Origin: Chrysophaeum taylorii
Taxonomy: Eukaryota; Sar; Pelagophyceae; Pelagomonadales; Pelagomonadaceae
Reading direction: 5' to 3'
NCBI GenBank assembly: GCA_029834535.1
Contig: JAQMWT010000104.1
Location: 1 to 64,000 of the forward strand
DNA length: 64,000 bases
The position numbers were made by a program, and so were the translations under genes. This document shows, piece after piece, positions 12,928 through 48,586 of this stretch (its first letter is position 1; the number at the start of each line of letters is the position of its first letter). A model generated the notes under the pieces. It made no database searches and was not told the origin of the DNA. It saw only the letters and a program-made list of their open reading frames with translations.

Positions 12928-12962
<35 letters not shown>

Positions 12963-18413: not shown

Positions 18414-18489
18414 GTGAGTGATGAAAACAACCCCCGAGGTTTGGTTGAGGGTTTGGTTTGTTGTTTCGGGTGGAAGTTGAAGGTACGTC

Positions 18490-23489: not shown

Positions 23490-24854
23490 TCCGCCGTTGG
23501 TGCCGCCGTTAGAAGCAGATGGCGGCGGTCCGGCGGTTGCCGTTGGCCGACCTGGACTTGCACAACCGAGTGGATACGGCGGGCCAGAAGAAGCAGCTGG
23601 ATCTCTGACTGGAGGCGTTGGAGCAGGCCGTGGCCGGAGACGACGGTTCGAGGTTGAGAACGACGCGAACGAGTCGGAGAACGTGGGGGCGCGAGGTCCA
23701 CGTCCGCGTCATGGAGTAGCTACGGCCTGCACTCGCGCGTTTTCCGTGGTGCTGCTCGCCCGCGTGTCGAAGAGGTTCGGGATGTTTGGATCCCGCGTTC
23801 GCTCGACTGGAACTTCGGGGGCGGAATCTCGGGGGGCAGGAAGCGGATCCCGCGTTCGCTCGACTGGAAGATCGGGGGCGGAATCTCGGGGGGCAGGAAG
23901 CGGAGCCTGAGCTCGACGTCGACTCTCCTGTCTCCGATGAGCGGGTCATCTGCGTAGCCCGCCCCGCTCGGGCTGCCGCCCGCCGCACTCGAGGTGAACG
24001 TGCGCGCCCGGTGCGAGCCCTACCTCGAGCGCATCACCGAGCAGTGCGCGCGGGCGTTTCGGTCGGCCAAGGAGAAAGTACGGCGCAAGTGGCCTACTCG
24101 CTACAACTACGCGCGGCGTCAAGGGTGCTTGTCGCATAGCTCTGCCTTCGACGCCTTCAGCAACTGTGCGGTCCACAAGTTCTGCCTCTGCGGTAACCTC
24201 GGCGTCTCGCCAGACTGCCTCACGAGAACCCTAACTACGACGTCGTGCGTGACTCGCGGCAGTCATCCATACAGACCTAGAAGGAGTCAGAACTCAAGGA
24301 CGACAAGATGATGCGCGTCATGATCCCCTCGAACTCAGCATGTATCCAGTACCTCAAGCCCATCGCCGACGCCGACACCGTCCAGGTGCCCAGCGGCGCC
24401 ACGTACCATGGACTCGTTGTCAAGACGAGCAAACAACTCCGCCCAGTACGCCCGCTCCGAATACGTTAGATTGTCGGATGCCGTGGTGAAGGCTATCTCC
24501 CGCTACGATGCACGTGACCTACGCCGACCTTGACCAGTCCTGGACGCGTCCAGCGACCTGGCCTACGGCTCGACCTTAGTCTTCGAGAATGACTACTAAC
24601 AGAACAAACACTGTCCCAGCTGGAACGCCTCGGCCCAGCCCGGACCCACTGGACGTCCGCATCTCCCCCCCCCTAGCCTGGAAAGACGGCCGGTCGCCCC
24701 GTTGGTCGGGATGCCGATGGCTGGGGGATTCGCTCAATCGGAATAAAGAACAGTTGCAGAGCATTTAGCAAGCAGTGGTAAGTCACCTGGGAAACCATCC
24801 CGTCTCATCATGAACGTCTGGAAGTATTTAATTCGGGGAATGAAAAGGTATGTT
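23490..24854. other. Degraded GC-rich sequence, no gene recognised
   Basis: Short open stretches occur on plus (23,470-23,910; 23,786-24,139; 23,994-24,311), with an internal ~60-bp duplication (R-G-R-N-L-G-G-Q-E-A repeated). Nothing matches a family I know. It may be a decayed element like the sequence at 58-60 kb or 63 kb. Confidence 0.4.
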
Positions 24855-25085
24855 CCCTATATCCTCAGAACACGACAGGCGGCATCTAGAACTACACGAG
24901 AAAGGTAAAGTGTATAGTGCTACATACCTCGGGACGCGCTAGACCATGATGATGAGCGTAAAGCACATATCAGAGGACTATTTGATTGTGTAGAAAGGAA
25001 GAAGAAGGGTAAGGAAGAGATCACATTCTCAACGGACGGATAAGGGTAAGAGGCAGCAGATTTCTCTGCACCACCCTCGAGATGT
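24855..25085 (+). repeat. Diverged repeat, second copy
   Basis: Partner of 23,060-23,330 in the same orientation. It also lies just beyond the 3' end of Copia-MT, so part of it could be remnant LTR. The similarity is patchy. Confidence 0.5.
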
Positions 25086-26456: not shown

Positions 26457-27040
26457 CTGAGCACCCATCACAGGAGGGTTGGAAGGAAGTAGCATTACGT
26501 GCACATACGATAGGTTGTATGGGCGCCTGATCGGTGTTGTGACAGGCGCAACAAATGTTAGTGGTGATAGTTGAGATGGGGATGTGACCATTCTTCTTGT
26601 GGTCATCTGTGTTGAGGTGACTCAGCACTTCAGTGGGAGTTCACAAGGTGCTTGTGACTTCGAATTATATGTGGTGGAGGCAAGAATTACCCTGATCGTT
26701 GAGGCTTGCGGTTGCGATGGAACGACGTTGGGCCTCATGAAGCCTGAAGCCTTGCGAGGAGCAGCTTCCCGGCGTAGGTTGGCACCTATTCGTGCGTCCC
26801 GGCGCGCGGTATGACAGCTGAGCACCCATCACAGGGGGTTGGAAGGAAGTAGCATTACGTGCACATACGATAGGTTGTATAGACCTGATCGGTGTTGTGA
26901 CATGCGCAACAAATGTTAATGGTGATAGTTGAGATGGGGATGTGACCATTCTTGTGGTCATCTGTTGAGGTGACTCAGCACTTCAGTGGGGAGTTCACTA
27001 GGTGCTTGTGACTTCGAATTATATGTGGTAGAGGCAAGAA
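26457..27040. repeat. Local duplication with SINE fragment between copies
   Basis: About 220 bp (26,457-26,685) are repeated at 26,817-27,040, sharing GAGCACCCATCACAG, CATACGATAGGTTGTAT and GACTTCGAATTATATGTGGT. Between the copies, 26,690-26,812 matches the 5' part of the SINE family on plus (TTACCCTGATCG..., GGTTGGCACCTATTCG), without its tail. This looks like a template-switch or repair product. Confidence 0.75.
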
Positions 27041-27673: not shown

Positions 27674-30600
27674 TCAATCCTGTAAAGGATTGTCGTGAGA
27701 GGCATGATGCATACCGAGTAGAGAACGAAAAGTGGAGAACTCAGCAGCAAGTGGCTTTGTAAAACCATCCGCCACGTTCAGCTTGCCGGGAACATGATGG
27801 ACTCGTATTTTCTGTAGCGAGATGTACTCACGGATTTTAAACCATCTGGTCGACAGTGCCTTGGATCGAGAGGACCCATCTGGGTTATTAGAGGTGTGAA
27901 CAGCGGCAGCATTGTCAGACAAGAGAGGTAGGCTTCTGATGAAGCGCATATCTTCAGCAATTGGGTTGTCATTGTCATCGAAGTCGACAGGGTCAGCGGT
28001 GTTCTCACCATTAGCATTGTTGACGTAGAAGGTGGGGTTGACGACAAAGGAGAGTTCCAACAGCAGCTTGCGTAGCCAAACAGCTTCATCAGCACAAATA
28101 CTGAGGGCAATCAACTCAGCTTCGTGAGTTGAGCAGGAGACAATCGGTTGAAGTTTGCTTTTCCAACCAATAAGGCAGTTGAAAAGATAGAAGACAAACC
28201 CGGTGGTAGATTTCCTATCTTCCTGTGCTAAGGAAGGGGCATTGTCAGCGTCAACCATGGCAACTAAGGGGTCAAACTGTCCAGTAGATACATCCTGCGG
28301 TTGGTAGTCGACCACAGTGGATAGATCAATTCGATTAGCGGAGACAGTGCGAAGGTGAGCTTCAATGGCATTACCTTTAGGATGGAACCAGAGGCGAAGT
28401 GAGCGGTTTTCCGGCTTCTTGAGGTAGCGAAGCAAATGCTCTAGCATTTGGACGTGAACATACGTGGGTGCATGCATACCACGCGAACATCTGCCCAAGG
28501 CTTGCGAGAAGTCAGGTCTGCAGGCAACTTGCATGAACACCAGCTTGCCAAGGAGGGTGGCAAAGTGCGAATTGATGTACAACTCTGTTTCAGAGCTGGG
28601 AGTGCCATCTTTATACTTGAAGGACGATGACATAGGATATTTAAGCGGGGTCAGTTGCTGCAAGACTGGGTGATCAGCGAAGAGTTCATCCAGCTTGGCT
28701 TGCACATCCAGAGAAATGGAGCCGTCAGATGTGCGACACACACGCATGCCTAGGAGGGTATGGACAGGTTCAAACTGCTCTACAGCATACCGTTTGTGGA
28801 GGGCATCCTGTAATTCAGTACGAAGAGGGTCGTCATTGGACACAATAACAATGTCGTCTACAGACAGACTGCATACGACGAACTTAGCATGTGCGGATAC
28901 TCGAGCATATAGGCAAGAGTCCGAATGCAGGCGTTTGTAACCAAGGCTACGGAAGAAGCCGTCTATCTCTTTGTTCCAAAGGGATGGTGATTGCCGAAGT
29001 CCATAAAGTGACTTCAGCAGTTTCGGTAGACGTCGGCCCTTGTACTTAGCGTCATCGGGGTCGATAAGCTTGATGCCGTCTGGTAACTGAACATAGACAT
29101 TGGCATCGATGTCAGACTGAACGAAGGCGTTCGGGACGTCTGCATGGTAGACAGGCAATTGCTTGTATGCTGCAATAGCTAGTAGTACCCGGATTGCGGT
29201 CATAGTGGCCATGGGGCTGAAGGTACCAAAGAAATCGGCGCCAAGAGATGCTAGGAAGCCACGTAGTACGAGGCGAGCCTTGTGCTTAACGTATTTGCCT
29301 GCAGAGTCTGTTTTAATCTTCAGCACCATCTTGCTGTCAATAGGACGAGAGACACCGTCGGGTAAGGAAAGTTTGAAGCAGCCAAAGCGGATAATGTCGT
29401 GGAGTTCCTTGGCGATGGCCTTGAGGTAGGCGTGCCTGTTTTCAGGCGACAAACCGTGGAGGCACTTAAGTTTATATTCGTCAATGGAAACGTCCGCTTC
29501 TTGGACCTTATATTCGTCAGGACCAACAGTGGCTGGTGAATTATAGTTTAGCGACGTTGCGGTCGAGGCAGTGTGCGCAACTTCGGGATAAGCGGAAACA
29601 GCGTCAGTAGGAGTAGTAGGGGCAGATTCCAGTTGGATATGGATAGTAGGGTCGGTACGTAAGACCTGGGTGATAAACTCTGTAGAGACCAGAAGGTATT
29701 CCTCCAAGTCAGCCAGAGATGCAGAAGTAGCGCCAAACTCGGATGAGTTGTGATCAATAAAGCTGGTCGGCGCCAGGTACGTAAGTGCATATTGTAAGGA
29801 AGAAGTGCCGAAGGCAGCAGCGTGTTCAGTGAACGCAGATAAAAGGGGCTGAGGAATAGGGCACGCAGGTGAACCATCAGCAGTTAAAAAGGTTGCAGCT
29901 GGGATGCTGGATGCGCACTTGGCGTGGGCGAAGTAACCATCGACGTGCGGGTAGCGGGCAAGTAAGTCAGTGCGCAACGGGAGAAGAAGACGAGCTAACA
30001 ACGCATGTTCCCCCTCTGAGCAGATAGCAGACCAGAGGATACCACCACGGAGATGAAGGGCGGAGAGGGCGGGAGACTTGAACGTAAGAAAGTGGTGGCG
30101 AAGATCCCAGCGGAAATCGGCGAGCTTGCCACCAGCGGCTTTGTAAGCACCAATAGTAGACGCTTGTAACCGGGCTCGGATAGTTTTCATAGAAGTGGCC
30201 TTGCGAGTGTTAGGCTGTTTGGAACCTGGGACAAGAATGAGGTCATCTTGTGCAAAAAGGTCTTTGTAAGAAGGAAGCAAGGGCGGCGGTGACATAGAGC
30301 CAGAATCGTCGGCGAGAGCGTCAGAAGAGGGGGAAGAGGCAGGAGTAGGGGACGAAGAAGGAGCTGAAGGAGGTGGGGAGTGCCCCCTCTGAGGATGAGG
30401 AGTCCTTGTCCCCCTCTGAATGACATGGTCTTGGATAGTGGTGTGGGGTGTGAGCGAGAAAGGCGCGGAAGGAGCGTGAGGCGGAGGAGCTAGTTCAGGA
30501 TCAGGAGTAGGATGCTGCAACATGTAGAGGAATTGCAGCTTGGACGAAACACGAATTTGTCCGTTTTCAGGGTTGAGGACGACGTCAGCGAGATGGTCGA

Positions 30601-31732
30601 CGCGTGGGGAGACGAGCGGGTTTTGCGCGTTGGCGCAACAGAGATACAGATATTTGCGGCGGCACGGTTCCCACTTGTGGTGTTCATGGGGCTCCAATAG
30701 GAGGTAACATTCAGCGCCAAAAATCTTGAGCATATCGTGTTGGGGAGTGCTGAGTTGGTTGTAGAGTAGCTGTTGCGGACTCAGAATAGCATGATGAATG
30801 CGCTCGAGCGTGGCGTTCGGGAGAAGGTTATAGCTTTGAACGGTGTGTATCACCGCCCATGGGAACATGATAGCGGGTTCCACGATCTTGGCGCCACGAT
30901 AGTGAGCATTAAGGAGAGAACGAAGGCGAGTTGAGGAGGCGGAGGCGATGAAACCGATGGCAGACTCAACTTCAAAGTTAAAGTGGTGCATGTACGGCGG
31001 GAAGGCAATGAGTTGAATGCCCTTATCGACGCGGTACGGGGAGGTAATGTGCTGGCTAAAGTAAGGCTTGAATGCATCGGAGTAGAGGGTGCGCATGTGC
31101 ACGTTGAGTTGTGTACGACAGAAGTCATACACAAAATCCAGAGCTTGAGTGAACTCCGTGGCGTTGGTGGTGCGTGTAAAGTACACCAACAGAAATTTCG
31201 AAATGAGTTCCTTGAAGACGATGATATGTGTGAAGCCTCCCCATTCGGATGGGATGGTCACATAGCCGCCGTCGCACGCCCAGACTTCGCCGGCTTTGTG
31301 AGTTTGCTCAAAAGAAGGCTTGGTCGCATTGAAATGCTTGTGCGGGTGGCGCTTGTTGTGTGCGATGCAGTCGGTGCATAAGTCGCGATATGGTATGTCA
31401 GAAGCAGAGAATCCAGGGCGAGCAAGTACGTTGGGGGCCTTGGCAGCGACGTTGTCGGGGCAGTGATGCACCCGGTGAAAGCGATTAGCACGTTCTTTGG
31501 CATTGAGATATTCGGTGGATCCGTGTGCGAGGGACTTACGAGGAATTGGATGAGCGGGAATGTGCCGTTTGCGCCGAACATCGAACTTGAGTTCGGTGTC
31601 TAAGGCAGTGGAAGGCGGTGCGTCGTCATCCTGGTGCACAGCAGGGTCACCTGGAGGTGCATCCTCATTATCACGAGTAGCGAGAGTATCTTCGTAGGAC
31701 GACGATATATAGTTTAACGACATTTCGGTCAA
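27674..31732 (-). CDS. Copia-MT integrase - reverse transcriptase - RNase H
   Basis: A continuous 1352-residue ORF beginning at the TEMSLNY motif. The integrase zinc domain is H-H-C-C (HRVHHCP...CTDC, about residues 85-140). The integrase core has D in WACDGGYV, D in YSDAFKPYF and E in FEVESAIGF. A Pro/Ser linker with a second SLNY motif (STATSLNY) precedes the RT, which shows KARLVLRGF, VPNAFVQSDI and the catalytic SVDD. RNase H has VDADNAPS, THEAELIAL and the terminal HHVPGKLNVADGFTKPL. Copia order is therefore certain. The long intact frame points to comparatively recent activity. Confidence 0.92.
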   Translation of the reverse strand: MTEMSLNYISSSYEDTLATRDNEDAPPGDPAVHQDDDAPPSTALDTELKFDVRRKRHIPAHPIPRKSLAHGSTEYLNAKERANRFHRVHHCPDNVAAKAPNVLARPGFSASDIPYRDLCTDCIAHNKRHPHKHFNATKPSFEQTHKAGEVWACDGGYVTIPSEWGGFTHIIVFKELISKFLLVYFTRTTNATEFTQALDFVYDFCRTQLNVHMRTLYSDAFKPYFSQHITSPYRVDKGIQLIAFPPYMHHFNFEVESAIGFIASASSTRLRSLLNAHYRGAKIVEPAIMFPWAVIHTVQSYNLLPNATLERIHHAILSPQQLLYNQLSTPQHDMLKIFGAECYLLLEPHEHHKWEPCRRKYLYLCCANAQNPLVSPRVDHLADVVLNPENGQIRVSSKLQFLYMLQHPTPDPELAPPPHAPSAPFSLTPHTTIQDHVIQRGTRTPHPQRGHSPPPSAPSSSPTPASSPSSDALADDSGSMSPPPLLPSYKDLFAQDDLILVPGSKQPNTRKATSMKTIRARLQASTIGAYKAAGGKLADFRWDLRHHFLTFKSPALSALHLRGGILWSAICSEGEHALLARLLLPLRTDLLARYPHVDGYFAHAKCASSIPAATFLTADGSPACPIPQPLLSAFTEHAAAFGTSSLQYALTYLAPTSFIDHNSSEFGATSASLADLEEYLLVSTEFITQVLRTDPTIHIQLESAPTTPTDAVSAYPEVAHTASTATSLNYNSPATVGPDEYKVQEADVSIDEYKLKCLHGLSPENRHAYLKAIAKELHDIIRFGCFKLSLPDGVSRPIDSKMVLKIKTDSAGKYVKHKARLVLRGFLASLGADFFGTFSPMATMTAIRVLLAIAAYKQLPVYHADVPNAFVQSDIDANVYVQLPDGIKLIDPDDAKYKGRRLPKLLKSLYGLRQSPSLWNKEIDGFFRSLGYKRLHSDSCLYARVSAHAKFVVCSLSVDDIVIVSNDDPLRTELQDALHKRYAVEQFEPVHTLLGMRVCRTSDGSISLDVQAKLDELFADHPVLQQLTPLKYPMSSSFKYKDGTPSSETELYINSHFATLLGKLVFMQVACRPDFSQALGRCSRGMHAPTYVHVQMLEHLLRYLKKPENRSLRLWFHPKGNAIEAHLRTVSANRIDLSTVVDYQPQDVSTGQFDPLVAMVDADNAPSLAQEDRKSTTGFVFYLFNCLIGWKSKLQPIVSCSTHEAELIALSICADEAVWLRKLLLELSFVVNPTFYVNNANGENTADPVDFDDNDNPIAEDMRFIRSLPLLSDNAAAVHTSNNPDGSSRSKALSTRWFKIREYISLQKIRVHHVPGKLNVADGFTKPLAAEFSTFRSLLGMHHASHDNPLQD
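29544..29564 (-). other. SLNY motif site 3 (integrase/RT junction)
   Basis: 21-bp motif coding TATSLNY in the linker before reverse transcriptase. Confidence 0.85.
31710..31730 (-). other. SLNY motif site 2 (start of integrase)
   Basis: 21-bp motif coding TEMSLNY at the start of the integrase ORF. Confidence 0.85.
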
Positions 31733-31744
31733 GCAGTTGCTGGA

Positions 31745-32110
31745 ACTAACTAACTAACTAACTTCAGACCTCTGCCGAGCATGGGAGCCAGGCCGGACCG
31801 ACAGGAGCCAGTCCGGAATCACGGGCCTGTAGACGAGGAGCGCCGAAAGGTCGGTCGGCGGAGAGTGACCATCAAGCTTGTCGCCATGCGACGAGGAGAC
31901 CGCGATGTGACTGACAACAAAGTCGTCGATAACCTTCCGTCTTCGCCCCCCGGCCATACCACGTCCCACTGCGAACGTTCCGGCTGCCAACCGGCCCGCC
32001 CGGGAGGCGAATAGGTGCCAACCTACGCCGGGAGGGCGGATGCCCTCGCAAGGCTCAGGATTCATGAGGCACCGTCCTCCATCGCAACCGCAGTCGGCGA
32101 TCAGGATAAG
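31745..32110 (-). mobile_element. SINE copy S1, in Copia-MT
   Basis: A full-length type A SINE in minus orientation. The tail (CTAA)n lies at 31,745-31,760 and the head (CCTTATCCTGATCGCC on minus) at 32,110. It is inserted next to SLNY site 2. No convincing target-site duplication was found. Confidence 0.8.
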
Positions 32111-32730
32111 GGTGCCAAAGACAAGGTATCTGTGCTGCACGTGGTGCAGGCTTGGTCAACGGTCATGAAATTGGATACATAGGATTTCTTCGTCACGGCA
32201 GCAGTATGTTGGAAGGTAGGGTCCAACATAAGGGATTTAATATCGGCGACGATGAGCGAAAGGTGCTTGTACAGAGTGCTGTACGTACCGGCAGGCAGAG
32301 CATTGCTGAGCATGTCACAGCAAAGGTCATGGCGTAGAGACAAGAGGAAAGATTCCTGTTGTTTGGTGTGGTTGTTAGCACGAATCAACTCCGGTCGAGT
32401 GGGGTAGCGTAATTTCCCGTTGCGAGGGTCGAGTAAAATAATATTGGCATACCCTCGGACGGTTGGCAATGGAGCAAGCATTGAGTGGATTTTAGAGCCG
32501 AGTTTGCGGTCACTTCCACGAAGATACCCTATATAGCGACTATGAGATAGGTGATGATCTTCCAGAGCAAAATGAGAATCCTTATAATCGAAAGAGTTGT
32601 CGGTGGCCTTGTAGGTAAGGCAGCCAGGCATCACGAGAGCGCATCTGGACACGAGGTTTTGTATGGCGGTGCCATAGGTGGTAGCGGAGCCAACTTGGGG
32701 AAGGGCTTGGACTATCCACAAGTAACCCAT
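32101..32730 (-). CDS. Copia-MT pol N-terminal region (unknown domain)
   Basis: An ORF upstream of integrase, clearly homologous to 37,214-37,700 of Copia-1 copy B (shared HLSxSRYxGxxxxSDRKxGxKxHS and LxPDLCCD/LRHDLCCD, then NALPAGTY). It is conserved between families but not recognised as a named domain. A SINE separates it from the integrase ORF. Confidence 0.6.
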   Translation of the reverse strand: MGYLWIVQALPQVGSATTYGTAIQNLVSRCALVMPGCLTYKATDNSFDYKDSHFALEDHHLSHSRYIGYLRGSDRKLGSKIHSMLAPLPTVRGYANIILLDPRNGKLRYPTRPELIRANNHTKQQESFLLSLRHDLCCDMLSNALPAGTYSTLYKHLSLIVADIKSLMLDPTFQHTAAVTKKSYVSNFMTVDQACTTCSTDTLSLAPLS

Positions 32731-33240: not shown

Positions 33241-33978
33241 TTAGGAACGGGTATATGGAGGATCGGGGAACACCCGGATCCAGTCTTTGGATATGTGGTT
33301 AGGTAGCCAAAGGCGCTTGGGAATAGCTTGTAGATCATCCACGATCTTTAGGAAGGGGCGTGGATGGAGGATGGGCCACGATGATAGTTTAATTGGTCCA
33401 GTAGAATATCTGCGTGCGATGCATATCCATCTTTCTCTAGATTGGTAGTCGCCACATAGGTAGGTCGGGAACCTATCAACAACATCGACACAGTAATCAA
33501 GGGTAGTATAGATAAGGTTGGCCACTGTGATGTGGTCTTGATGACAGTACTTATGCGGAGGCGTCATCTCAGCCAGTAGTACCAAGGGCTGGAGTAGCTT
33601 GATGACAGACAGCATGCTGTCGAAAAGAGAATCGTCCAGCAGGCTGTGTAAGTCTTCTGTCTTATGCTGTTTTAGTAAATTCCTGTTTGTGCAGGGAGGA
33701 GTGATCTCAATTATATCACAATAGAATGTGCGCCTTTCCTCTGGTGAGATTAGGTGAAGATGGTTAATAAAGGCGGGGAGAGATTCAAATAATAGTACAG
33801 TAGGAAAACGGTGGCGTAACATACGAACAAGCGTATCATCAGACTCAACAACAACTTTTACATTGATATTTAAGCCTAAGTCATTAGTGGCTTGAGACAG
33901 GAACGCCGGAGTTGACAAACCAGAACAAAGTAACATGACAGAGGGTTTGCGGAGATTGGACTCTTGTGAGAGAAACAC
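33241..33978 (-). CDS. Cytosine-5 DNA methyltransferase domain within Copia-MT
   Basis: A 245-residue ORF between protease and integrase. C5-methyltransferase motifs occur in the canonical order: motif I-like LLCSGLSTPAF (16-26), an acidic residue after a strand (VVVESDD, motif II), motif IV ITPPC with the catalytic Cys at 96, motif VI-like LLAEM with Glu 137, and motif VIII QSRER (179-183) followed by WICIARR. The spacing of IV to VI to VIII (about 43 and 42 residues) is close to that of M.HhaI. Motif X was not identified, so the ORF may be a partial domain. Expected activity: transfer of methyl from SAM to cytosine in DNA, here possibly the element's own copies. The family call is from motifs only. 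Confidence 0.75.
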   Translation of the reverse strand: MFLSQESNLRKPSVMLLCSGLSTPAFLSQATNDLGLNINVKVVVESDDTLVRMLRHRFPTVLLFESLPAFINHLHLISPEERRTFYCDIIEITPPCTNRNLLKQHKTEDLHSLLDDSLFDSMLSVIKLLQPLVLLAEMTPPHKYCHQDHITVANLIYTTLDYCVDVVDRFPTYLCGDYQSRERWICIARRYSTGPIKLSSWPILHPRPFLKIVDDLQAIPKRLWLPNHISKDWIRVFPDPPYTRS

Positions 33979-33993
33979 TGGGCGTGAGAGTAG

Positions 33994-34944
33994 TCAATTT
34001 AATGGCTGCGTATTTTGCTGAACAAATTTGTTCTGTTTCCGAAGATTGAGAACCAAAGGGCGAATCCACGGCCGATCTGGTAAAACTCGTTGGAGTAGGT
34101 AATTGTAGTATGCCAGTAGATCCCTGTTTTCATGGTATCGCTTGAGGGGAAATGCAAGGGAGCGAAGTTCCAGCCGCTTGTCGCGCGCGATGTTGTAAGT
34201 GAGACAAGGGAGAGCGGGTAAATTAGCTGCTACATAGTGTATGGGTATACGTACATCTTTGTCTATGCGGCTCGTGACAGCGCTGAGCTTTGGCTCAGCT
34301 CGATCGTTGAACACGGTGGTAAGATTCGTCTGGTTCCACTCGAGCATGCTCAGGATAGCGAGATGTCGGTCATGCACTGGCTGAAGACATAAAGCGAAGT
34401 CGATCTTAACATAGCCAACTTGTGGATGATCTGGTAGGGGAATAACGATGTTGCGTGTTAACATCATGTGTGATGCCCGTTGTTGTCCTGTTGCCGTCTG
34501 AATAACAATCGGCGCGTATGTGGAGTCCAATGGAATTATATGATTGGGTATTGCGAAATCGTAGGTGGACATCAATGAGATGGTAGCACAAGAGTCAAAA
34601 TATAGAAAAGAGCAATGTGGAGGGACACTGTTTACCTTCATGTAGTTGGTGAGGAAGGCGTTTTCCGAATGTGGGCAAGTAGTGGAGAGACTGGCTGTAA
34701 AGAAGTTCTTCCGCAATAACAGATTCGTTGGAATAATGATCGGTTGAACAGGTGGTGATGGTTCGTCAGCCTCATCAGCCATGCCGTGCTTTTCGTCAAA
34801 TGACGATAGAGAAGTATGATCGGCATCCCTTTTGGTTTCGGCTTGTGATGGTAGGTTGAGGGCAGATTGGACCTGTGAAGATAGCGAGGACAATAATGCT
34901 GGTGGTAAAGCCGAGATGGCGGAAGCGGTAAAGAGGTTAGACAC
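33994..34944 (-). CDS. Copia-MT aspartic protease region
   Basis: A 316-residue ORF following gag. The segment FLYFDSCATISLMS (about residue 112) matches the hydrophobic-hydrophobic-D-S/T-G/C-A active-site pattern of retrotransposon proteases, with Cys where Gly is common in Copia. Downstream hydrophobic strands (LTRNIVIPLP, HLAILSMLEW) fit the fold. It would process the polyprotein; see the repeated SLNY motif sites. Confidence 0.65.
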   Translation of the reverse strand: MSNLFTASAISALPPALLSSLSSQVQSALNLPSQAETKRDADHTSLSSFDEKHGMADEADEPSPPVQPIIIPTNLLLRKNFFTASLSTTCPHSENAFLTNYMKVNSVPPHCSFLYFDSCATISLMSTYDFAIPNHIIPLDSTYAPIVIQTATGQQRASHMMLTRNIVIPLPDHPQVGYVKIDFALCLQPVHDRHLAILSMLEWNQTNLTTVFNDRAEPKLSAVTSRIDKDVRIPIHYVAANLPALPCLTYNIARDKRLELRSLAFPLKRYHENRDLLAYYNYLLQRVLPDRPWIRPLVLNLRKQNKFVQQNTQPLN

Positions 34945-34957
34945 AGTATTGGAAGGA

Positions 34958-36478
34958 TTACCCTGTGTGTTTGTAGTAGGAGGAGTTGTTGTTGGGGTGG
35001 GAGCAGTAACGACAGTATGGGTGTTGTGGCTCCACGTAGTTTAACGACTTTTCGGTCGAGGATAGATGAACGTCTACATCATAAATGATGTCTTCTGCAA
35101 ACATGAGCTGTTCGTTTAGACGAAGTAAACTACTGTTGTCATCAGTAGATGTCGTTGACAGGATATCGGCTGATTGTAGCAGAGTCTCAAATAACTTGTT
35201 GATATTATGTTGTAGCTGAGCCGTGGTATCATTATCTGTCACATGCTTCGTGAGTTCGCTACACTGTTCTCGCAGGGTGTTTAAGGTGTGGTTTGTTCGA
35301 TCTAATAATTTCATGTTAGACCGAGAGGACCTGTCAAAAGTGCGGGGGTAAATTGGACGGTCATGGGACTGTCCGGCAGTTTTCTTGGTGACGTAAGAAT
35401 CACCAGGACGATAATACGATAAATCGCTGCGAGAGAAAGGCTGGCGAGCATCATTAGAGTTACGCAAGCGTCTAGCATTAAACGTGGAAGATGTACCAGG
35501 TTGGGACGAAGTGATGAAGGCGAGTGTGTTAGCAGTTTGAGTCAGACTTTTGTCCGATGAGTCCAAAGTATGTGTAAGTAGTAACTTTGGCTTTGGTTGA
35601 GATGATAAACCTTCGACATAGGGTTGCCAAGAAACAGGGCGTTCTAAGCGTCTTTTGTTCGACCCATTTGATACGACATTGTAAAGGTCTAATGCGTATT
35701 CTAAAATGTAGCTTGGGTTGGTAGGGTGACACAATCGTTCAGCTTCTGGCACAGGCCGAGATGAAGATCGGGTTTCGTACATATAACACCAATCTACCCA
35801 ACCACGATCGTAACGGTTGTTGCTGGTATTATCGGCATAATGCCGATGTATCTCTTCATAGATTTTTCTGCAAAGAGTGCCAAAGTCGAATTGAAGGTCA
35901 GTCTCTTCCTGGTTAAGTTGGTAAGAGATTTGCCTAAATGCTAGGACAGCTTCGATAAATACATGGACATACCAGTTAGGATTATAAACAACAGAGTTAA
36001 ATTGCTGTTTCAAATAAGACACATCAGTAGTCGTAACAGACTCGTAGTGATTAAAGGCGATGAGCATAATGGCTCGAGCCTTGTTGGGTAAATAACTTTT
36101 GTTGTATACCTCATTGATGGCGGGCCAGGCCGCAAGTGCCGGTTTTCCAACACTTTCAAGATTGAAGTAAGTATGCAAGAATGTAGCGTACGTGTTCTGG
36201 TAAGTGTGCCAGTCAGCTGCAGTTAACGAAAACATGGTAACCGGGGCACGAACACGAGTGTCGAAAGCTAGTGCCTTCGGGTGCGCGCGATTTAAGATTC
36301 GTTCCTCTTCTAAGAAACGAGCATTGATTTCAGGACGTAATGCCTTGACTTCATAGTCGTAACAGACAGTAGTTAGCTGAGCTACTTCTGCATCAGGTAA
36401 GTGGGGGAAAGCTTCGTTGGTGAAATGCCAACAAAAAAAAAAGTTAAGAAACTCAACTACAGGAGCTTCGAGCTTCAA
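34958..36478 (-). CDS. Copia-MT gag-like ORF
   Basis: A 506-residue ORF at the 5' end of the element. It is largely helical, with a charged, Ser/Thr-rich middle and a heptad-like region near residues 385-450. Near the C-terminus comes the repeated motif STEKSLNY, immediately followed by PYCRYCSHPNNNSSYYKH, a CxxC...H cluster in the place of a nucleocapsid zinc finger, though not a standard CCHC knuckle. It is probably the particle protein. The assignment rests on position and these features. Confidence 0.65.
   Translation of the reverse strand: MKLEAPVVEFLNFFFCWHFTNEAFPHLPDAEVAQLTTVCYDYEVKALRPEINARFLEEERILNRAHPKALAFDTRVRAPVTMFSLTAADWHTYQNTYATFLHTYFNLESVGKPALAAWPAINEVYNKSYLPNKARAIMLIAFNHYESVTTTDVSYLKQQFNSVVYNPNWYVHVFIEAVLAFRQISYQLNQEETDLQFDFGTLCRKIYEEIHRHYADNTSNNRYDRGWVDWCYMYETRSSSRPVPEAERLCHPTNPSYILEYALDLYNVVSNGSNKRRLERPVSWQPYVEGLSSQPKPKLLLTHTLDSSDKSLTQTANTLAFITSSQPGTSSTFNARRLRNSNDARQPFSRSDLSYYRPGDSYVTKKTAGQSHDRPIYPRTFDRSSRSNMKLLDRTNHTLNTLREQCSELTKHVTDNDTTAQLQHNINKLFETLLQSADILSTTSTDDNSSLLRLNEQLMFAEDIIYDVDVHLSSTEKSLNYVEPQHPYCRYCSHPNNNSSYYKHTG
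35037..35057 (-). other. SLNY motif site 1 (end of gag)
   Basis: 21-bp motif GACCGAAAAGTCGTTAAACT plus A, coding TEKSLNY, just before the CxxC cluster. Confidence 0.85.
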
Positions 36479-36999
36479 TATATATCCGCACCTGTGATCG
36501 CCTTGGGTGCGGCTCGTGCTGCGTGTTCTGCCATAGCAGTTGACGGGGAACCTGTGGGTTCAGTCGCGCAGTTGACACTGTCTAGACATTCTAAGGGGGT
36601 TTGTCTATCGGTGTCTATGTACACTCGTCGGTTTTTTCGATGGAAAATGTGTCTATATGACGACTGTGCAAGCTGTGAGTCTAGAGTAGCGTCGCTAAGC
36701 GTAGTCACTCAGGCAGCTGGTTAGTTTTGGTGCTCTCAAGGAGCTTGTTAAGTGCATTGCCATGTAATGTACGAGTGGACGTACCCAAAATATTTCATAA
36801 CATGTGTGCAAGAGTACAGGTTAGCCAATTACACACACATCAACATTGACATGACAATACGATGCTATGAACAGGTGCACACAAGGTTACACGATCACGT
36901 GTGCAAACAAAATATTATATACAGCCCAATGGTAATGGCGTTGTATTTACAAGTGTGTTTTCGTGGTGAGGTTAGATCGGCGCGGTAACGACCCAATAC
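36479..36999. other. Junction between Copia-MT and Copia-1 copy B
   Basis: About 500 bp, AT-rich, without a recognised gene. On the minus strand it should contain the Copia-MT leader and possibly its 5' LTR, but no partner LTR was found near 25 kb. Several TGTG/CACA-rich words are present; no boundary can be fixed. Confidence 0.4.
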
Positions 37000-37213
37000 C
37001 CATAGGTTACGTGCACGCTCTTCTAAATACCAAGCACATATAAATGCATTTGGCGAAACCTACACCTTCCTAACACATGATGCCGGAATCAATAAGACTG
37101 CTTCTCTCGATCCTGTTACCGGTTTTCTTTGGCTTTGCCAAGCATACCACAATAATAATGAAAATCAAGACACGCGTCGCCTAGTACAAACACTGGTTTC
37201 CTATACTTCTCCT

Positions 37214-38194
37214 GTGCTTCACTATACTTTCGTATTCTACCCTCAGGAAAATCGTGTTGAATTTATCGATAAAACTTTTGCTTTAAGTGACATGCATTTG
37301 TCCCAAAGCAGATACCTTGGCTTTATTACATCAAGCGATAGGAAGATGGGTGCCAAAGTTCATTCCATATACATTCCCACTCCTACCATTCGTGGATTTG
37401 CTAATATGCTCGCGTACGATCCACGACTCGATCGCATTCGACATTACTCAACTCGCGAATTGGCACGCGCCAATAACTTCACAGCGTACCAAATCAATTT
37501 TCTTTTGTCTTTGTCCCCGGACCTATGCTGTGACATAACCGCGAATGCTATTCCGGCTGGAACTTATCATGTAATCTATAAACATTTGTGTCAGCTTGTC
37601 TATGACTTGCGTAAATTAACGCTATCACCATCTTTTGACCCTGATCATGCTTCTTTAACCAAAAACTATAGGTCAACCTTTTTCACAAATATATTCCCAA
37701 CAGACACATCCTTAATATTACACCAGAGTTCCATTACAGTGTTATACATAAATAAAAAGAAACTCTCGTGTTGTGATAATCTTGCTTCTAACCACGAACT
37801 TCCATCTTTTCATCTCGATTCAGTAGCCCATGTCTTCCTCTCTAACACCTCATCCGCCGATATGTCATCTCCTACCAAAGAAAGACAAATTCCTCTCATA
37901 ACGCCAAGACAGCTCCATGAGAAGCATGCGCCCTTTGATAAAAAAGTTCATGCCAGGGGCACCCTCGCATTTCGAGATGCACAACAACGAGCTACCAATT
38001 TTCACAACATCCACCATTCTAGTGATTCTCAAGCTATAAAAGCTGTTCAGGTTATTGCCAGTCCGGGACATCACCCATCTGACGTACCCTACCGCAAGTT
38101 CTGTGTGGATTGTACGATTCATAAAAAACGCTTCGCTCATCCACACCATCTTACCAAGCAACCGTCATTCGAAAAAAATTGTTCAACCTGGTGA
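37214..38194 (+). pseudogene. Copia-1 B pol N-terminal and integrase zinc region
   Basis: Homologous to Copia-MT 32,101-32,730 plus the start of its integrase. It shows the H-H-C-C zinc domain (FHNIHHSSD...FCVDCTIH). The core integrase continues at 38,180-38,640. Confidence 0.7.
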
Positions 38195-38689
38195 AGCCTG
38201 GGTATGTGACGGTGGTTACGTATCTGTTCTCTCGGAATGGGGATCCTTTCGACATATCATTGTTTTTAAGTGTCTCATTTCCAAATTTTTGTTAGTGTAC
38301 TTCTGTCGTAGCACTAACTCTAGCGAATTTTGTAACGCCCTTGAGTTTGTCCGCAATTTTTGCTCTACTTATGTTCATGTACAACTAAAACAAATTTATT
38401 GTGATTCCTTCAAACCCTATTTATCTCAGCATGTTACAACTCCCTTTCGTGTGGAACATGGTATTAATATGTCCGCGTTCCCCCCTTACTTACATGTCTT
38501 TAATCATGAAGTAGAAGCCGCTGTTGGTCACATAGCCACTGCCGCGTCTACACGACTCAGGCATCTGCTTAATGTACCCTATAAAGGTCACCCCCTAACA
38601 GTTCCGGCACCACACTACCCGTAGGCTGTTATACATGCTATCCAATCGTATAATCTCTTCCCTAACGTTTCCCTCGAACGTATTTATAA

Positions 38690-39090
38690 AAACCTAACCC
38701 TGCGATCGCTAACCGTTGGTTGCGGTAGAGGACAGCGCCTAACACGCTTGCTCCCTGCGGCGGCCCCGGCCGTCCCGGAGTGAGACGGTGCCTGCTCGCC
38801 TCCCGGGCTGGCCGGTTAGCACCCGGAAAGTCCGCGCTGGGATGGGGTTCTCTCGGTTGGGCAGAACGCGACGGACAGGTCGATTGTTCGTGGACCAACA
38901 CGTTTGCGGCCTGCGACGCTTTTGCACGACTTCGCACAAGACCGCGCGCAGTGGCGGTCCGTCATCAACGAGTCCTCGTCCCTCGCCTCAGCCCCAACTG
39001 CGTGATTTTCCTCTGTGATTCCGGATCGGCTCCTGCCTGTCCGGCCTGGCTCCCATGCTCCGGAGAGGTCTGAAGTTAGTTAGTTAGTTA
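38690..39090 (+). mobile_element. SINE copy S2 (type B), in Copia-1 B
   Basis: A 401-bp insertion flanked by a perfect 10-bp duplication GTATTTATAA (38,680-38,689 and 39,091-39,100). The head is CCTAACCCTGCGATCGC and the tail (TTAG)n. The body differs from type A, but the last ~70 bp (GGCCTGGCTCC...GGTCTGAAG) are shared. No ORF is supported. It post-dates copy B. Confidence 0.92.
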
Positions 39091-39125
39091 GTATTTATAA
39101 TGAAGTCCTAAGCCCCCAACAAGTT

Positions 39126-42125
39126 TTGTTGGATCAATGTAATGTTCCCCAACAGGACTATCTCAAACCTTTTGGCTCTGTTTGTTATCTACATTTGGAA
39201 CCTAACGAATTTCATAAATATGAGCCTCGATGTCGTCCTTACATCTACTTATGTGGTGCTAATGTCATAAACCCATTAATAACACCCCATGTTAATCATT
39301 TAGCCGATGTTGTCCTTAATCCTGAAAACGGCCAAGTCCGTGTTTCTTCTAAACTTACCTTTCCTCATCTTATTTCTAAACAACCTCCTGATTATGAACA
39401 ACATCCACCTCCCGCACCTTCACCCGACATTCCCTTCTCTGTTCACAGCACCCCCAATGATGCGGCGCAGAGGGGGAATGCTATGCCTACCGACACTGAC
39501 CACGAGAGGGGGACTCCTTCTCCTCCTGCCCATGCTCCTTCTCCCGCTCCCGCATGTGCTCCAGATGCTTCCGCACCCGCTGTTCCTGTCACCACACCTC
39601 CTACATCTGAAGTGTCCTCCAACACTTTGCCATTTTTACCATCCTATCGGTCTCTCTATTCCCAGGATGTCCTCCGTCTCACCCGTGGTCCTCATCACCC
39701 TCACCCTCGTCGCAAAACCAATCTCAAGAATGTTCTTACTCGTATTGCTTCGCCAACCGTTGCCGCTTATAAACAAGCTGGTGGTACGCTTGCCGACTTC
39801 AAGTATGACCTCTCCAAGCAGCACATACCATTCTGCGACCCCACCCTCCACTCCCTTCATCTTGCTCATGGCATCCACTGGACGGGTATACCTCCAGAGG
39901 GGGAATTTACACCATCCCTTCATCACCATGTTCACCAAGCGCTTTCACAGTCCTCTTCAGTTATGTGTCATAGGAGCCATAGCCACCCATCGCCTGATGC
40001 CCCTCATGTTCATTTCTGCGACGACGTCAACCTTGCAGACTTTCACCTTCCTCAAGCTCTCGTTCAACTAATTTCTGAACATGCTCACGCCTTTCAAGTT
40101 CCTCCCGCTCGATATGTTTTTGCTTTGTTCACACCCCAATCCATTTTGGATCATAATGACGCTTCTTATGGTGTCTCCGAGCCTCACCTCTCCGCCATCG
40201 AAGACTATATCGCCGTGCAATCGCATTACATTGAGGCCCACCTTGGTGATGCTCCTCTACTAGTTGTTCAACTCGTCGAAGATCCCGATCACGCTCACAC
40301 TCACGATAATGTCGCTTCTTTCGCAATTACCCATCTTACGACGGCTCATGACCCCAGCACTGTTGGTTCGGACGAATACAAGATTCAAGCCAAAGACATT
40401 AAAATTGATGAATATGAGTTGAACTGCCTCAAAGGTCTTTCAGACGCTGATCGCAAAGCTTATATCTCCGCCATCTCCAAAGAGATTTTTGATATTGTTA
40501 AGTTTGGCTGCTTTAAACTCGCGTTGCCAATGGTCAACTCAAAGCCTATTGACACCCGCCTCGTCCTACGTATAAAAACCAATGCTGCTGGTCAATACAT
40601 CAAGCATAAAGCACGCCTGGTCCTACGAGGATTCTTAGCCTCGCTGGGCACCGATTTTTTCAACACATTCAGTCCTATGGCACAGCTTACTGGCATCCGT
40701 TGTGTTCTGGCGCTAGCAGCCCATCTGCGACTTCCCGTCTACCATATTGACGTACCTAACGCTTTTGTTCAAGCTCCCATCGACTCTCATGTCTATGTTA
40801 AACTGCCACAAGGCATTTACCTTCTCGATCCCGAAGATACTAAATATCAAGGCCGTCGTCTCCCAAAGCTACTTAAATCTCTCTATGGATTACGCCAGAG
40901 CCCCGCCCTTTGGAATCAAACCACAAACGGCTTCTTTGATTCATTAGGCTATACACGATTTCGAACAGTTACCTGCATTTACGCGAAAGTCCAAGCTGAC
41001 GCTACATTTTGAATTTGCACGCTCTCAGTGGATGAAGTAGTCATCACTTGCACTTCGGAAACTCCACGTCGTGAATTCCAACAAGCCCTGAAAAAGGGAA
41101 ACTCAGTCGACACCTTTGAAGAAGTCCATACTCTCTTAGGCATGCGCATAACGCGTACTACTGATGGTTCTATATCACTGGACTGTCAGGCTAAACTTGA
41201 TGCATTGTTCGAAGAGTACCCCATTTTAATGCAGTTACGTCCCACTTCTACACCGATGTCACCATCAGCCACGTATAAAACTGGAGACCCATCTTCTGAT
41301 ATTGACGAGTTTATTCTTCATACCTCCTCCACCTTACTCGGCAAGCTCACTTTTGTCCAATTGGCCTGTCGCCCTGATCTATCCCAAAGTCTTAGTCGTT
41401 GCTCTCGAAGAATGCATAATCCAGCATTTCTACATGTTCAAGTAATAACAGGAACGCTCCGCTACTTGCGCAAGCTCGAAAATCGCAATCTTCGACTCTG
41501 GTACTACTCTGGCTCTTCCGCTCTAATGGACCATCTTAGACTTCTTATCGGCAATCGCACTGACATGGCAGCCATGTTGGATTACACTAAAGCCAAGTCT
41601 ACAACCGGTTACGCCATCTTTTTGTTCGGTTCTCTCATCACTTGGAAGTCTAAGCTACAGCCTATCACGGCTACTTCTACGCATGAGAGTGAACTTATCG
41701 CCCTTAATATGTGTGCCGATGATGTGGTCTGGTTACGTAAATTGTTAACGGAAATGGCATTCGCTATAAATCCTCACTTATATCTTCGCCAACCTCCAGG
41801 GAAAGACTTGCTACTAGATTATGATGCTCACGACAACCCCCTCCCATCGGACATGTCGTTCATACGTAACAGTCCTATACTTGGAGACTCTGCTTCTGCT
41901 ATCCATCTATCAAATAATCCCGACAGTGCGACTAAGGCCAAAGCTATCAGCACACGCTGGTTCCGTATTCGCGACTACGTACAGTTAAAACGTATACGTC
42001 TACATCATGTTTCCGGTACTCAAAACATTGCTGATGGATTTACTAAACCCTTCGGAGCTCCGCTCTTCAGCAGATTTCGCACGTTACTTGGCTTACAACA
42101 ACCCATAGCTCAACAAGATGGTTGA
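39126..42125 (+). pseudogene. Copia-1 B integrase end, reverse transcriptase and RNase H
   Basis: It encodes the end of integrase, a Pro-rich linker (about residues 90-150), RT (KARLVLRGFLASLG, VPNAFVQAPI, VDEVVIT) and RNase H ending IADGFTKPFG. It closely parallels Copia-MT pol except that the linker has no SLNY motif. Confidence 0.85.
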
Positions 42126-43419: not shown

Positions 43420-43825
43420 GGGTCCAGAGAGCTACACTATTGTGTGTACGACACTGGAACATTTCACGCCTTTCACACCTATCTCTGCAAGAGGGTTTTC
43501 TCTCCGTAATACGGCTTTCCCTCTTTCCTTCCTTACCCTTCCGCAATTACTTATTCATGACTATGAAGAATACAGTCTGAAGCTCTCTTCCAACATGGAG
43601 TAGGCCTCCAGGTGCGTACCGTCAGGTACGGGGTGTTCTGTTTAATTAACAGAGGCTTCGTTCCTCGTTGTCAGTGTAAACGCTTCTATGGGACCTAATG
43701 TCCTTAAGGAGTTAGGGCTTAAATCCCTACCTTGTGTAGTAGCATGTGACAAGCGGAATGGTCTGTACACGCCTAAGACCGCACGCAGTCTCTACCATGT
43801 ACCCGGAGAGGGTCAAATCTCTCCA
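43420..43825 (+). repeat. Copia-1 B 3' LTR region
   Basis: Collinear with 10,290-10,709; both end CAAATCTCTCCA. Immediately beyond it, Copia-2 coding sequence starts. Confidence 0.65.
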
Positions 43826-45026
43826 ATGAGTTCGAACGCTCACAAGTCGACACTTGCCTCTATATCAGTTGGGATCGATCTATCAACAGATGGGTTCTCC
43901 TATCCGTCTCTGTCGATGATCTATTGATCACTGGTACCAACGTCGCCAAAATCACATCTCTTCGTACCGCTTTGGAGAAGAAATATGGCAAAGGTACTTG
44001 GCATGATAACATTCGATCCTTTCTTGGTATCGATGTTCACTACAATGTCTCCGCTGGTCACCTCACTACGAATGTAGCCGCGAAGATAAACAAAATGCTC
44101 ACCGAGCATAAAATCAACCTCCGTACTACTGACGTCCCCTACTCGGGCATTCTCACTCAAAAACCTTCTGCTAAGCTTCTTTCCGACGTGGCTCCTACCT
44201 TAGAAATTTTACAGAAGCATTTCCCCATTACTGTGGCACTAGTATATATTTGTCTGTCACTTGTCGTCCAGACATCACCACTCTGTGCAACAAATGCTGC
44301 AAAGGCATGCACAACCCGGAGCAGACCCATCTTCTACACTTGTATGTTTTACTTCGCTATTTGAAGGGTACTCCGAATGATTCTCTCGACTATTCATCCG
44401 ACAGCCCCTCTATTACGCCCTTTATTCAGCATCTGATCAGCACATATCCAGAACTGCATCATCTTCGTTCGCCCATTATTTGTTTTACTGACGCCAGTTT
44501 CGCTGGCCGTTCTAACCCTAGCTTAAGATCTCATTCTGGTGCATGTATTTTCGTATTTGGCAATCTCGTATTCTGGTCTAGCAAACGCCAAACTCTTACT
44601 GCCAAAAGCACCATGGAAGCCGAACTCATCGCCGCTAGCGCAGCCGCGGATGAATGTAAATGGTTTCATGAGATCTTCTCTTCTCACCCTTACCTGTTTT
44701 CACGTGATCAAGCTCACGCTATTCCCCTGCTTATTGACAACGCTAGCGCTTTACATGTCGCTAATCACCCTAAAGTCAGTGCTCCCTCTCGTCATATCAA
44801 TTTACGAGAATTTCGCATTCGTGACTACCAGGCCAACTCGGTCATTCGTCCCCTCTGGTGTCCCACTCACTACCAGATAGCCGATCATTTTTCAAAGCTC
44901 CTCCCCCGCACTTTATTCCACAAGTTCAAGAACGCCTACGGTGTTCACTCTACATCTTCTTCACCACCATCTCATCAAGTTGCTCTTTCTGCTACTCTTC
45001 CACCGTACAACTCCGTCCAGAACACT
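43826..45026 (+). mobile_element. Copia-2 fragment, left of Gypsy insertion
   Basis: 3' part of a second Copia family: the end of RT (SVDDLLITGTNV) and RNase H (FTDASFAGRS, TMEAELIAAS, and the terminal CPTHYQIADHFSKLL). It abuts the 3' LTR of Copia-1 copy B and is split by the Gypsy element; it resumes at 50,718. It is broken and lacks its 5' part. Confidence 0.85.
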
Positions 45027-46725: not shown

Positions 46726-46921
46726 TATGAGAAAAAGTTTGATGTGCCATGGAAAGATGCGCCGCGCGATGCTGAGGGTGCACCGCTGCCGCAAACTCCT
46801 GCGCATGTCAAGGATAATGAAGCCATGAAAAGTTCAAGTTCCTACGAAGGAAGAAGTTGATAAGGTTGTTCAGGAGCTGGGAATTCCTGACAATCCGCAC
46901 TTAGATGACGAGGCGAAACTG

Positions 46922-48586
46922 ATGCTCCGTCACTGTGTGCAATATTCTTGGGCCTTTTTCGACCCGATTACGGGACCTGTGGACTCGCCTCCTGTGTCTC
47001 TACGATTCAAAGACGCGAATCCGCGACCGATAGAGATGACGCCCTACCGATTGACGCCTGCGAAGCTCGATTGTCTCCGCAAGCAGATCAGCGAGTGGTG
47101 CCGGGATGGAGTCATTCGTCCGGCCAACTCACCTTGGGGCTTTCCTGTGTTGATGCTTCCGAAGAAAGGAGCTGAGATTGGAACGTCCAACGCGTTCCGT
47201 GCTGCAGTTGACTTACGTCAGCTCAACGATCAATTGGTCAATGACAGTTGGCCGAACATTCGACAAGATGATGCTTTAGCTTTTCTCGCTATGCGACGAT
47301 GGCGGACATGCATTGATATTAGATGGGGATACCACAACCTTCGTCTGGATCCGGCAGCGCAAGACGCTGTCACGATGGTTAGCCCACTTGGCGCTCATAG
47401 TTTCTTGCGATTACCTCTAGGTGTGAAGACGGCCGGAGCTCTTTTCTGCAAGCAAATGGCGAGCGACCTTTCGAAATGGATGTATCGAGACTTGGTTGCG
47501 TTTGTTGACGATATTATGATGGGATCCGACGATCTTCATCGACATTTACAAGTTTTGATCGAAGTGATGTGTCATTTGGCACAGAGAGGGTACAGCGGTC
47601 GAACCGTGAAGTTCCACCTTCTCAAGGATGATATAGAATTTCTGGGACACATTTCGACCCCAGAAAGCTTGAAGCCGAATCCGAAGACGCTGGAAGCACT
47701 GCCGAAGATGCCGATTCCAGGTACTTTACCGAATACTTCCCCGAAGACCCAGATACGCTCTTTCATCGGCATGAGTAATTACTGCCGGCGATATGTGAAG
47801 GGCTACTCGAGGATCGTGGAACCGTTGAGACGATTATGCCTCGAAGGCGTAAAGTTCGAGTGGACGCCCGAGTGTCAGAAAGCTTGGGATACGATTATTG
47901 AGGCTTTGGTTGATTCCCGTGGAGTCTACCACCCCGATTATGATCTGCCTTTTCAGATCCGATCCGATGCTTCCAAGGATGGACTTGGAGCGTATCTCTT
48001 CCAGATTGTCGAAGTCAAGGACGATGCCGGGAGAGTGACTCGAGAAGAACGAGTGATTGAATATTGGAGCCGAGCTGTGCCGAAGGAGATGCGCAATTAT
48101 GAGCCCCGTCGGTTAGAGCTGCTGGCAGTTATACTTTCTCTAGAGCACTTTCGTGCCTACACAGAAGGGCACCGGACTGCTTTGGAGACCGATCACCGAA
48201 ATTTGACGTTTTTACGTAAGGCGACGCACTCGTCTGGGCAGCTTGCTCGTTGGGCGATGCGCCTCGCCAATTTTGACCCTGAACTTGGTTACAAGCCGGG
48301 AAAGTCACCGGGAATGAGTATCCCTGACTGTCTCTCCCGCAACCCGATATATCATGTCATCGAGACTGACGAGTTTGGAGAACCTTTGAACCACGCTTAT
48401 CTGGTGTTCAAAGAGCTTCCCCGACCTGTTGATGACCGAGGAATTCCCGCTGCCGGCTGCCACTTCATAATGTCGTTTGTTACGACCGAACTGCCGGAAG
48501 ACGAAGACGAAGACCTTGAAAAGGAGCCGATGAAATTGGCTACGTCTCACGCTACGAGACAACGTCGGAAGAACCGTGCGCGATGA
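46922..48586 (+). CDS. Gypsy reverse transcriptase - RNase H
   Basis: A 554-residue ORF. The RT shows AAVDLRQLN, LPLGVKTAGALF, the catalytic FVDDIM and FLGHIS. RNase H shows IRSDASKDGLGAYL, the Y-x-x-R-R-L-E-L-L-A region and a terminal TDHRNLTFL with GKSPGMSIPDCLSRN. This is typical Gypsy. Confidence 0.92.
   Translation: MLRHCVQYSWAFFDPITGPVDSPPVSLRFKDANPRPIEMTPYRLTPAKLDCLRKQISEWCRDGVIRPANSPWGFPVLMLPKKGAEIGTSNAFRAAVDLRQLNDQLVNDSWPNIRQDDALAFLAMRRWRTCIDIRWGYHNLRLDPAAQDAVTMVSPLGAHSFLRLPLGVKTAGALFCKQMASDLSKWMYRDLVAFVDDIMMGSDDLHRHLQVLIEVMCHLAQRGYSGRTVKFHLLKDDIEFLGHISTPESLKPNPKTLEALPKMPIPGTLPNTSPKTQIRSFIGMSNYCRRYVKGYSRIVEPLRRLCLEGVKFEWTPECQKAWDTIIEALVDSRGVYHPDYDLPFQIRSDASKDGLGAYLFQIVEVKDDAGRVTREERVIEYWSRAVPKEMRNYEPRRLELLAVILSLEHFRAYTEGHRTALETDHRNLTFLRKATHSSGQLARWAMRLANFDPELGYKPGKSPGMSIPDCLSRNPIYHVIETDEFGEPLNHAYLVFKELPRPVDDRGIPAAGCHFIMSFVTTELPEDEDEDLEKEPMKLATSHATRQRRKNRAR

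Follow-up and report, generated by a model that had tools for sequence, protein, structure and literature searches.

A predicted cytosine-5 methyltransferase inside the Pol of Copia retrotransposons of the pelagophyte Chrysophaeum taylorii, behind an in-frame UGA

The capture of DNA methyltransferases (DNMTs) by retrotransposons has been published for LINE, DIRS and Gypsy elements (PMC5890265), and a first-pass annotation of the locus described here was right in naming this precedent. KnitGypsy-Dnmt3 of Klebsormidium nitens resembles the present case in being an LTR element whose Pol contains a DNMT and whose intronless copies are under purifying selection, but its pol is of the Gypsy type, its enzyme of the DNMT3 type and its host a streptophyte (PMC5890265). 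Readthrough is not mentioned in the main text of that study. In Symbiodinium, a SAR alga, SymbioDIRS-Dnmt3 and SymbioLINE-Dnmt are likewise retrotransposon-borne C5-cytosine methyltransferases (C5-MTases) of high copy number, but they reside on DIRS and LINE elements; the abundant Copia elements of this alga are described in the same main text as being without any DNMT domain (PMC5890265). The Ty1/copia elements of diatoms (CoDi) are Copia elements of another ochrophyte alga. Their pol has the order protease, integrase, reverse transcriptase and RNase H, and the main text that describes them contains neither methyltransferase nor methylase (PMC2806351).

We analysed a window, by which we mean a whole stretch of 64,000 nucleotides from one contig. 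In it the first-pass annotation had reported an ORF with ordered C5-MTase motifs between the protease and integrase of a Copia element. The motif coordinates were confirmed. When the ORF is aligned jointly with Dnmt2, DNMT5 and a phage C5-MTase, its motifs I, II, IV, VI and VIII fall into register with theirs.

The methyltransferase and the element around it

The ORF (33241-33993, minus strand, 250 codons) is predicted to be the N-terminal part, motifs I to VIII, of a C5-cytosine methyltransferase (MT) lying in the Copia Pol between protease and integrase. Its motifs follow the canonical order on the minus strand: a motif I-like VMLLCSGLSTPAF, a motif II-like VVVESD, the motif IV Pro-Pro-Cys (PPC) with the catalytic cysteine (33691-33699), a motif VI-like AEMTPP with the glutamate E142 (33568-33570) and the motif VIII QSRER (33430-33444). 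PPC was found in 39 of 41 copies and is invariant in the lineage-1 subfamily alignment (L140 was left out for an internal stop; L139 was included and has a frame-shifted stretch). E142 is present in 38 and QxRER in 39 of the 41 copies, and all three features are retained across subfamilies that are 68-72% identical. Motif VI of the window MT reads EMT, as against the usual ENV. Motifs IX and X (PTVRGYAN...LRYPTRPEL...LSNALP) were located at 32230-32550 on the same strand, in another frame because this decayed copy is frameshifted. The full enzyme, with motifs I to X, would thus comprise very roughly 550-600 residues, of which the window ORF is the first part.

The annotated ORF is real but is no separate gene. 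Its left edge is the in-frame UGA after Gag-protease, and its right edge is a frameshift particular to the window copy, past which sibling frames such as those of L025 and L031 continue. A separate host gene was ruled out, the MT standing in frame behind the protease. The first reading was correct as to the identity of the MT; the UGA junction, the C-terminal remainder of the MT, a second lineage and the broken state of the copy had escaped it.

The proposed profile check gave a divided result. On its own the window ORF fails against Pfam PF00145 (11.6 bits, E 0.19; cut-off 22), while the sibling L135, which is 68% identical to it, reaches 22.3 bits, just above the cut-off, and the MT of the second lineage scores 32-36 bits, clearly above it. 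The C5-MTase call is therefore significant because siblings and second lineage score, not because of the window ORF alone. At E≤1, seven of the nine family members scanned match PF00145; in the scan that included L135, L134 and L139 were without a PF00145 match. The motif IX/X piece drew nothing from Pfam itself, and its profile matches that of Dnmt2 at E 0.0015; the lineage-1 profile matches Dnmt2 weakly (E 0.043). A PDB profile search with the lineage-1 profile returned no C5-MTase, NCBIfam gave no match for lineage 1, and PHROGs gave a DNA methyltransferase at E 0.02-0.06 only. In a protein-database search with the lineage-1 MT, none of 1593 candidates (limited by length and shared words) reached E≤0.001. 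One IMG/VR scan of 85 stretches yielded none, and another yielded two weak loci, one of which (L076) is a C5-MTase with ordinary motifs. AlphaFold, run on the single sequence of the window ORF, gave an unusable model with a pLDDT of 35.

The surrounding features, all on the minus strand, are those of a Copia element. The ORF with the protease, the end of Gag-protease, spans 33994-35040 and was recognized by its position and a DSCA motif, and the Gag ORF spans 34958-36559 and was assigned by position; neither has a Pfam hit. In the less decayed siblings L028, L036 and L042, Gag and protease share one frame. Integrase, reverse transcriptase (RVT_2) and RNase H occupy 27674-31753, with RVT_2 at E 1.1e-41, rve at E 0.0052, which is below its cut-off, and RNase H placed by position; the Ty1/Copia order, with integrase upstream of RVT_2 and RNase H, was confirmed. 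The 5' leader and the start of gag lie at 36443-37015, the match to the sibling L051 stopping at about 37015. A family LTR (TGCAGAG...CTCTGCA) at 24755-25070 is preceded by the purine tract GAGGGTGG, and over 317 nt it shares 97% identity with the L051 repeat upstream of gag. No 5' LTR of the window element was found within the window, and the LTRs described here come from two copies, the 5' LTR in L051 and the single LTR in the window. Directly after its 5' LTR, L051 has the site GGTTATGGGCCCAG, which looks able to pair with the anticodon arm of initiator tRNA-Met. Copia itself is likewise primed via initiator tRNA-Met.

The window copy is decayed, with an insertion and several frame breaks. 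The short insertion that interrupts it (31745-32111, no strand assigned) coincides with a break in the collinear L051 match between 32112 and 31748, and a 78-bp arm of it has an inverted repeat at 39015-39092. A second, 5' truncated Copia element lies on the plus strand at 36989-42125, with MT motifs IX/X at 37301-37633, upstream of its reverse transcriptase. Related short stretches were seen at 31745-32111, 38718-39092 and 26687-26802, and interrupt both Copia elements in opposite orientation; with 78 bp that are 92% complementary and further matches of 72-81%, they form a small interspersed element. The segment 26415-27072, located between the end of RNase H and the LTR in the first element, holds two direct copies of about 300 bp at a spacing of about 358 bp.

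Mixed LTR elements adjoin, namely another RVT_2 fragment at 43777-44364 and a Gypsy-like RVT_1/RNase H ORF at 46829-48586, and second-lineage MT matches follow on the same contig just past the window (C104:69944-70243 and 74405-75928). The window also holds DNA polymerase alpha (polA; 10898-15766, a single open frame of 1622 codons) and a gene of the UVB-sensitive/vitamin B6 family (18481-19980). GC content is 66% in polA versus about 46% in the elements. Rfam had no match in the window.

The UGA between Gag-protease and methyltransferase

Gag-protease and MT-Pol are separated by an in-frame UGA at 33994-33996 on the minus strand, with UGA-CUA spanning 33996-33991, and the MT frame begins directly after this stop. 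The stop is UGA in all 93 copies that have one, and the context is UGA-CUA in 75 of them. Most of the compared copies are close kin, so these are not 93 independent events; the evidence draws its weight from the few deep subfamilies that keep UGA despite near-saturated synonymous sites. In the first junction set 80 of 93 loci were placed and 13 were not; 77 of those placed have a stop and three have none. These 77 stops comprise 62 UGA-CUA, five UGA-AUA, four UGA-CUG, four UGA-AUG, one UGA-CAG and one UGA-AUC. A second set of 17 slices gave 16 stops, all UGA (13 UGA-CUA and one each of UGA-UUA, UGA-AUA and UGA-CCA). In L051, a single in-frame UGA is followed by an open frame of 1691 codons.

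The position of the MT right behind an in-frame stop, always UGA and mostly UGA-CUA, a known readthrough motif, makes it probable that the MT-integrase-reverse transcriptase-RNase H part arises through stop-codon readthrough. A reading of UGA as a sense codon was ruled out. Two of three host ORFs, polA and a Dnmt2-like gene, end in UGA (the third gene ends in UAG), and there is no UGA inside the 1622-codon polA frame. In genes read through at UGA-CUA, a stimulatory 3' RNA structure is frequent, not universal. We looked for RNA structure after the stop in five sequences, none of which folds better than its shuffles (z -0.04 to 1.98), and the case for strong readthrough is therefore weakened. 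In a fungal reporter, UGA-CUA by itself was enough to bring about readthrough (PMC4207609).

Another explanation is that translation of the ORF downstream of the stop starts afresh, by reinitiation or from a separate transcript. In Tca2, a gag-UGA-pol element, a promoter was identified at the junction, which by itself directed no readthrough in yeast (PMC2194720). In our own first set, AUG follows 4 of the 77 stops and AUA 5 of them. However, CUA, a poor start codon, occupies this place in 75 of 93 copies, and a new start would need neither a kept frame nor a UGA, yet the frame is kept and all stops are UGA. We therefore regard a new start as unlikely, although it deserves some weight. At L064, L069, L070 and L073 an AUG stands directly after the UGA, which would allow reinitiation there as an alternative to readthrough.

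Copies, selection and a second Copia lineage

The genome searched comprises 70.8 Mb in 697 contigs; the published C. taylorii assembly, for which Nanopore reads of strain NIES-1699 are reported, is given as 71 Mbp in 702 contigs with 81.5% BUSCO, and retrotransposons, transposition, repeats and Copia go unmentioned in the main text of that paper (PMC10366177). The lineage-1 MT has at least 152 matches, a lower bound because 150 of 1031 candidates were scored, and 34 of the 150 matches listed have internal stops. For the second lineage, where 118 of 443 candidates were scored, there are at least 122 matches, some of which are fragments of a single copy. The same genome gave 84 matches to the light-harvesting family, in keeping with an alga.

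The first-pass annotation had called for other copies with the MT in the same place, and these were found. Among the best 60 of 150 protease matches, an MT match is listed downstream for 43, at a distance of 4-7 bases in 36 cases and of 332 at most; in the remaining 17 an MT start is visible in each (L121 is without the stop and L133 is frameshifted). An MT match or start thus follows all 60, and no sibling without the MT was seen among them. For the family as a whole, neither of the refuting conditions named in the first-pass annotation applies.

It had further asked for purifying selection, and the sequences point clearly to it. The dN/dS of the MT is 0.156 (mean dN over mean dS, 29 copies); in the deepest subfamily pairs pS is 0.72-0.87, which is near saturation, and pN is 0.16-0.21. 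PPC, the motif-VI glutamate and QxRER are jointly present in 34 of the 41 copies, decayed ones among them. A chance ORF was ruled out by the 152 or more genomic matches together with this selection. In being multicopy, inside pol and under purifying selection, the MT matches the retrotransposon-borne DNMTs of the de Mendoza 2018 kind.

No excess of C-to-T changes at CpG was observed in the copies (CG 0.005 versus CH 0.006-0.007), third positions behaving likewise, and there is therefore no sign of heavy CG methylation of the copies. The missing footprint may mean that the copies are young, that codon constraint interferes or that another context is used.

PF00145 matches occur at 57 places in the genome, 20 of which we examined. 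Two resemble native genes, L001 being Dnmt2-like and L002 DNMT5-like, and all 18 others (L003-L020) belong to a second Copia lineage. Its MT has the motifs FTLPCQH and, mostly, ENVPP. In L052 this MT lies in one ORF of 1952 codons with a protease-like stretch, integrase and RVT_2, and both lineages have MT and integrase side by side within a single open frame. An alignment of lineage 1 with lineage 2 runs from ORF residue 484 of the former across integrase (E 2e-19) and covers LRYPTRPEL...LSNALP; compared as profiles, the N-terminal parts of the two MTs matched weakly (probability 2%, E 0.023). For lineage 2 a PDB profile search found M.HhaI at E 0.027, and a protein-database search found none at E≤0.01 among 7996 scored candidates (limited by length and shared words). 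In a tree of 14 sequences, with few references, none of them DNMT3, and with long, saturated branches (L075 was left out, no ORF having been found), both Copia MTs form one clade with a local support of 0.94, apart from Dnmt2, DNMT5 and the phage enzyme. The MT was probably captured once, before the two Copia lineages split. In L052 the gag ORF overlaps the protease-MT-Pol ORF in another frame (1097-1133). As gag and Pol frames differ there, Pol of lineage 2 would need a recoding mechanism other than that of lineage 1.

The Dnmt2-like host protein is identical over 360 residues to CTAYLR_008533. L002 (C621:16962-17498) is a DNMT5-like gene with a single long open frame of 2086 codons, and matches PDB 7r76 at E 3e-143; this entry is named Rad8 and we take it to be DNMT5. 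DNMT5 is a maintenance enzyme. No clear DNMT1 or DNMT3 was found among the 20 of 57 PF00145 places examined in this incomplete assembly, where intron-bearing genes match exon by exon. A DNMT1-RFD search was uninformative, no control having given a signal. It is conceivable, though improbable, that DNMT1 and DNMT3 are absent and that the Copia enzymes are then the genome's de novo cytosine methylases, with DNMT5 perpetuating their marks. If this were true, new copies would arrive methylated and the pelagophyte methylome would be written by its parasites.

Possible role of the methyltransferase and comparison with known systems

We propose that C. taylorii harbours an MT-bearing Copia clade which uses UGA readthrough, whose MT marks the cDNA or the landing site and whose mark is kept up by DNMT5. 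We give this proposal as a whole a probability of about 0.5. The identity and place of the domain, its copy number, the constraint on it, the UGA junction and the host DNMT5 gene are all seen in the sequence; readthrough, packaging, the cDNA as substrate and a benefit to the element are what this anatomy suggests. Gag-protease would be the main product, translation ending at the UGA, and a minority of ribosomes would pass UGA-CUA to make Gag-protease-MT-integrase-reverse transcriptase-RNase H. The MT would then be cut free by protease within the virus-like particle and could methylate the new cDNA there, or else the landing site. Host DNMT5 would copy the mark, and the new copy would pass as resident, already-methylated DNA. 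In this way a parasite may tag its own DNA via an MT that it carries, and the supply of MT would be linked to a probable stop-codon readthrough, that is, to the amounts of Pol rather than of Gag. Because the host has DNMT5, the source of de novo methylation in DNMT5-type genomes is directly testable here.

The MT could instead act on RNA, or be a nucleic-acid-binding part of Pol and not a DNA methylase. The primer site, apparently complementary to initiator tRNA-Met, would bring a tRNA into the particle. A LINE-borne enzyme did not methylate DNA when expressed in yeast, and a role on RNA was suggested for it (PMC5890265). Against this, the MT stands apart from Dnmt2, the tRNA enzyme, in our tree, which has few references and is saturated. 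We consider this reading doubtful. It is quite unlikely that the MT works chiefly on host chromatin or on insertion sites, by targeting or counter-silencing, and not on cDNA; that both lineages have it beside integrase within one open frame would suit such a role, and nothing specific was found against it, but marking of the cDNA is equally compatible with this arrangement. That the MT is a dead relic, a fold that lost catalysis and hitchhikes, is very improbable, since the weak single-sequence profile scores and the replacement of ENV by EMT are set against a dN/dS of 0.156 and three catalytic motifs all kept in 34 of 41 copies.

Tca2 of Candida albicans is a Copia-type element. In it a UGA parts gag and pol, whereas the stop described here lies after Gag-protease, and the abstract on Tca2 mentions no methyltransferase (PMC2194720). 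One sentence of PMC12344493 lists 'LTR Copia' among DNMT3-bearing elements; its source is the 2018 paper, where the LTR example is a Gypsy element, and the section concerned gives no Copia element, host or structure. In the available text of PMC12477816, PMC3145265 and PMC2806351 there is no Copia element with a C5-MTase, the first of these describing a Sola DNA transposon for which an N4C/N6A methyltransferase is predicted, and in the open-licence literature we found no other report of a Copia-borne DNMT or of any in pelagophytes. What is new with respect to the published captures is a stramenopile Copia with a predicted MT, present in two lineages that are separated by a deep split. One retrotransposon superfamily and one algal group would thereby be added to the small number of DNMT captures published so far.
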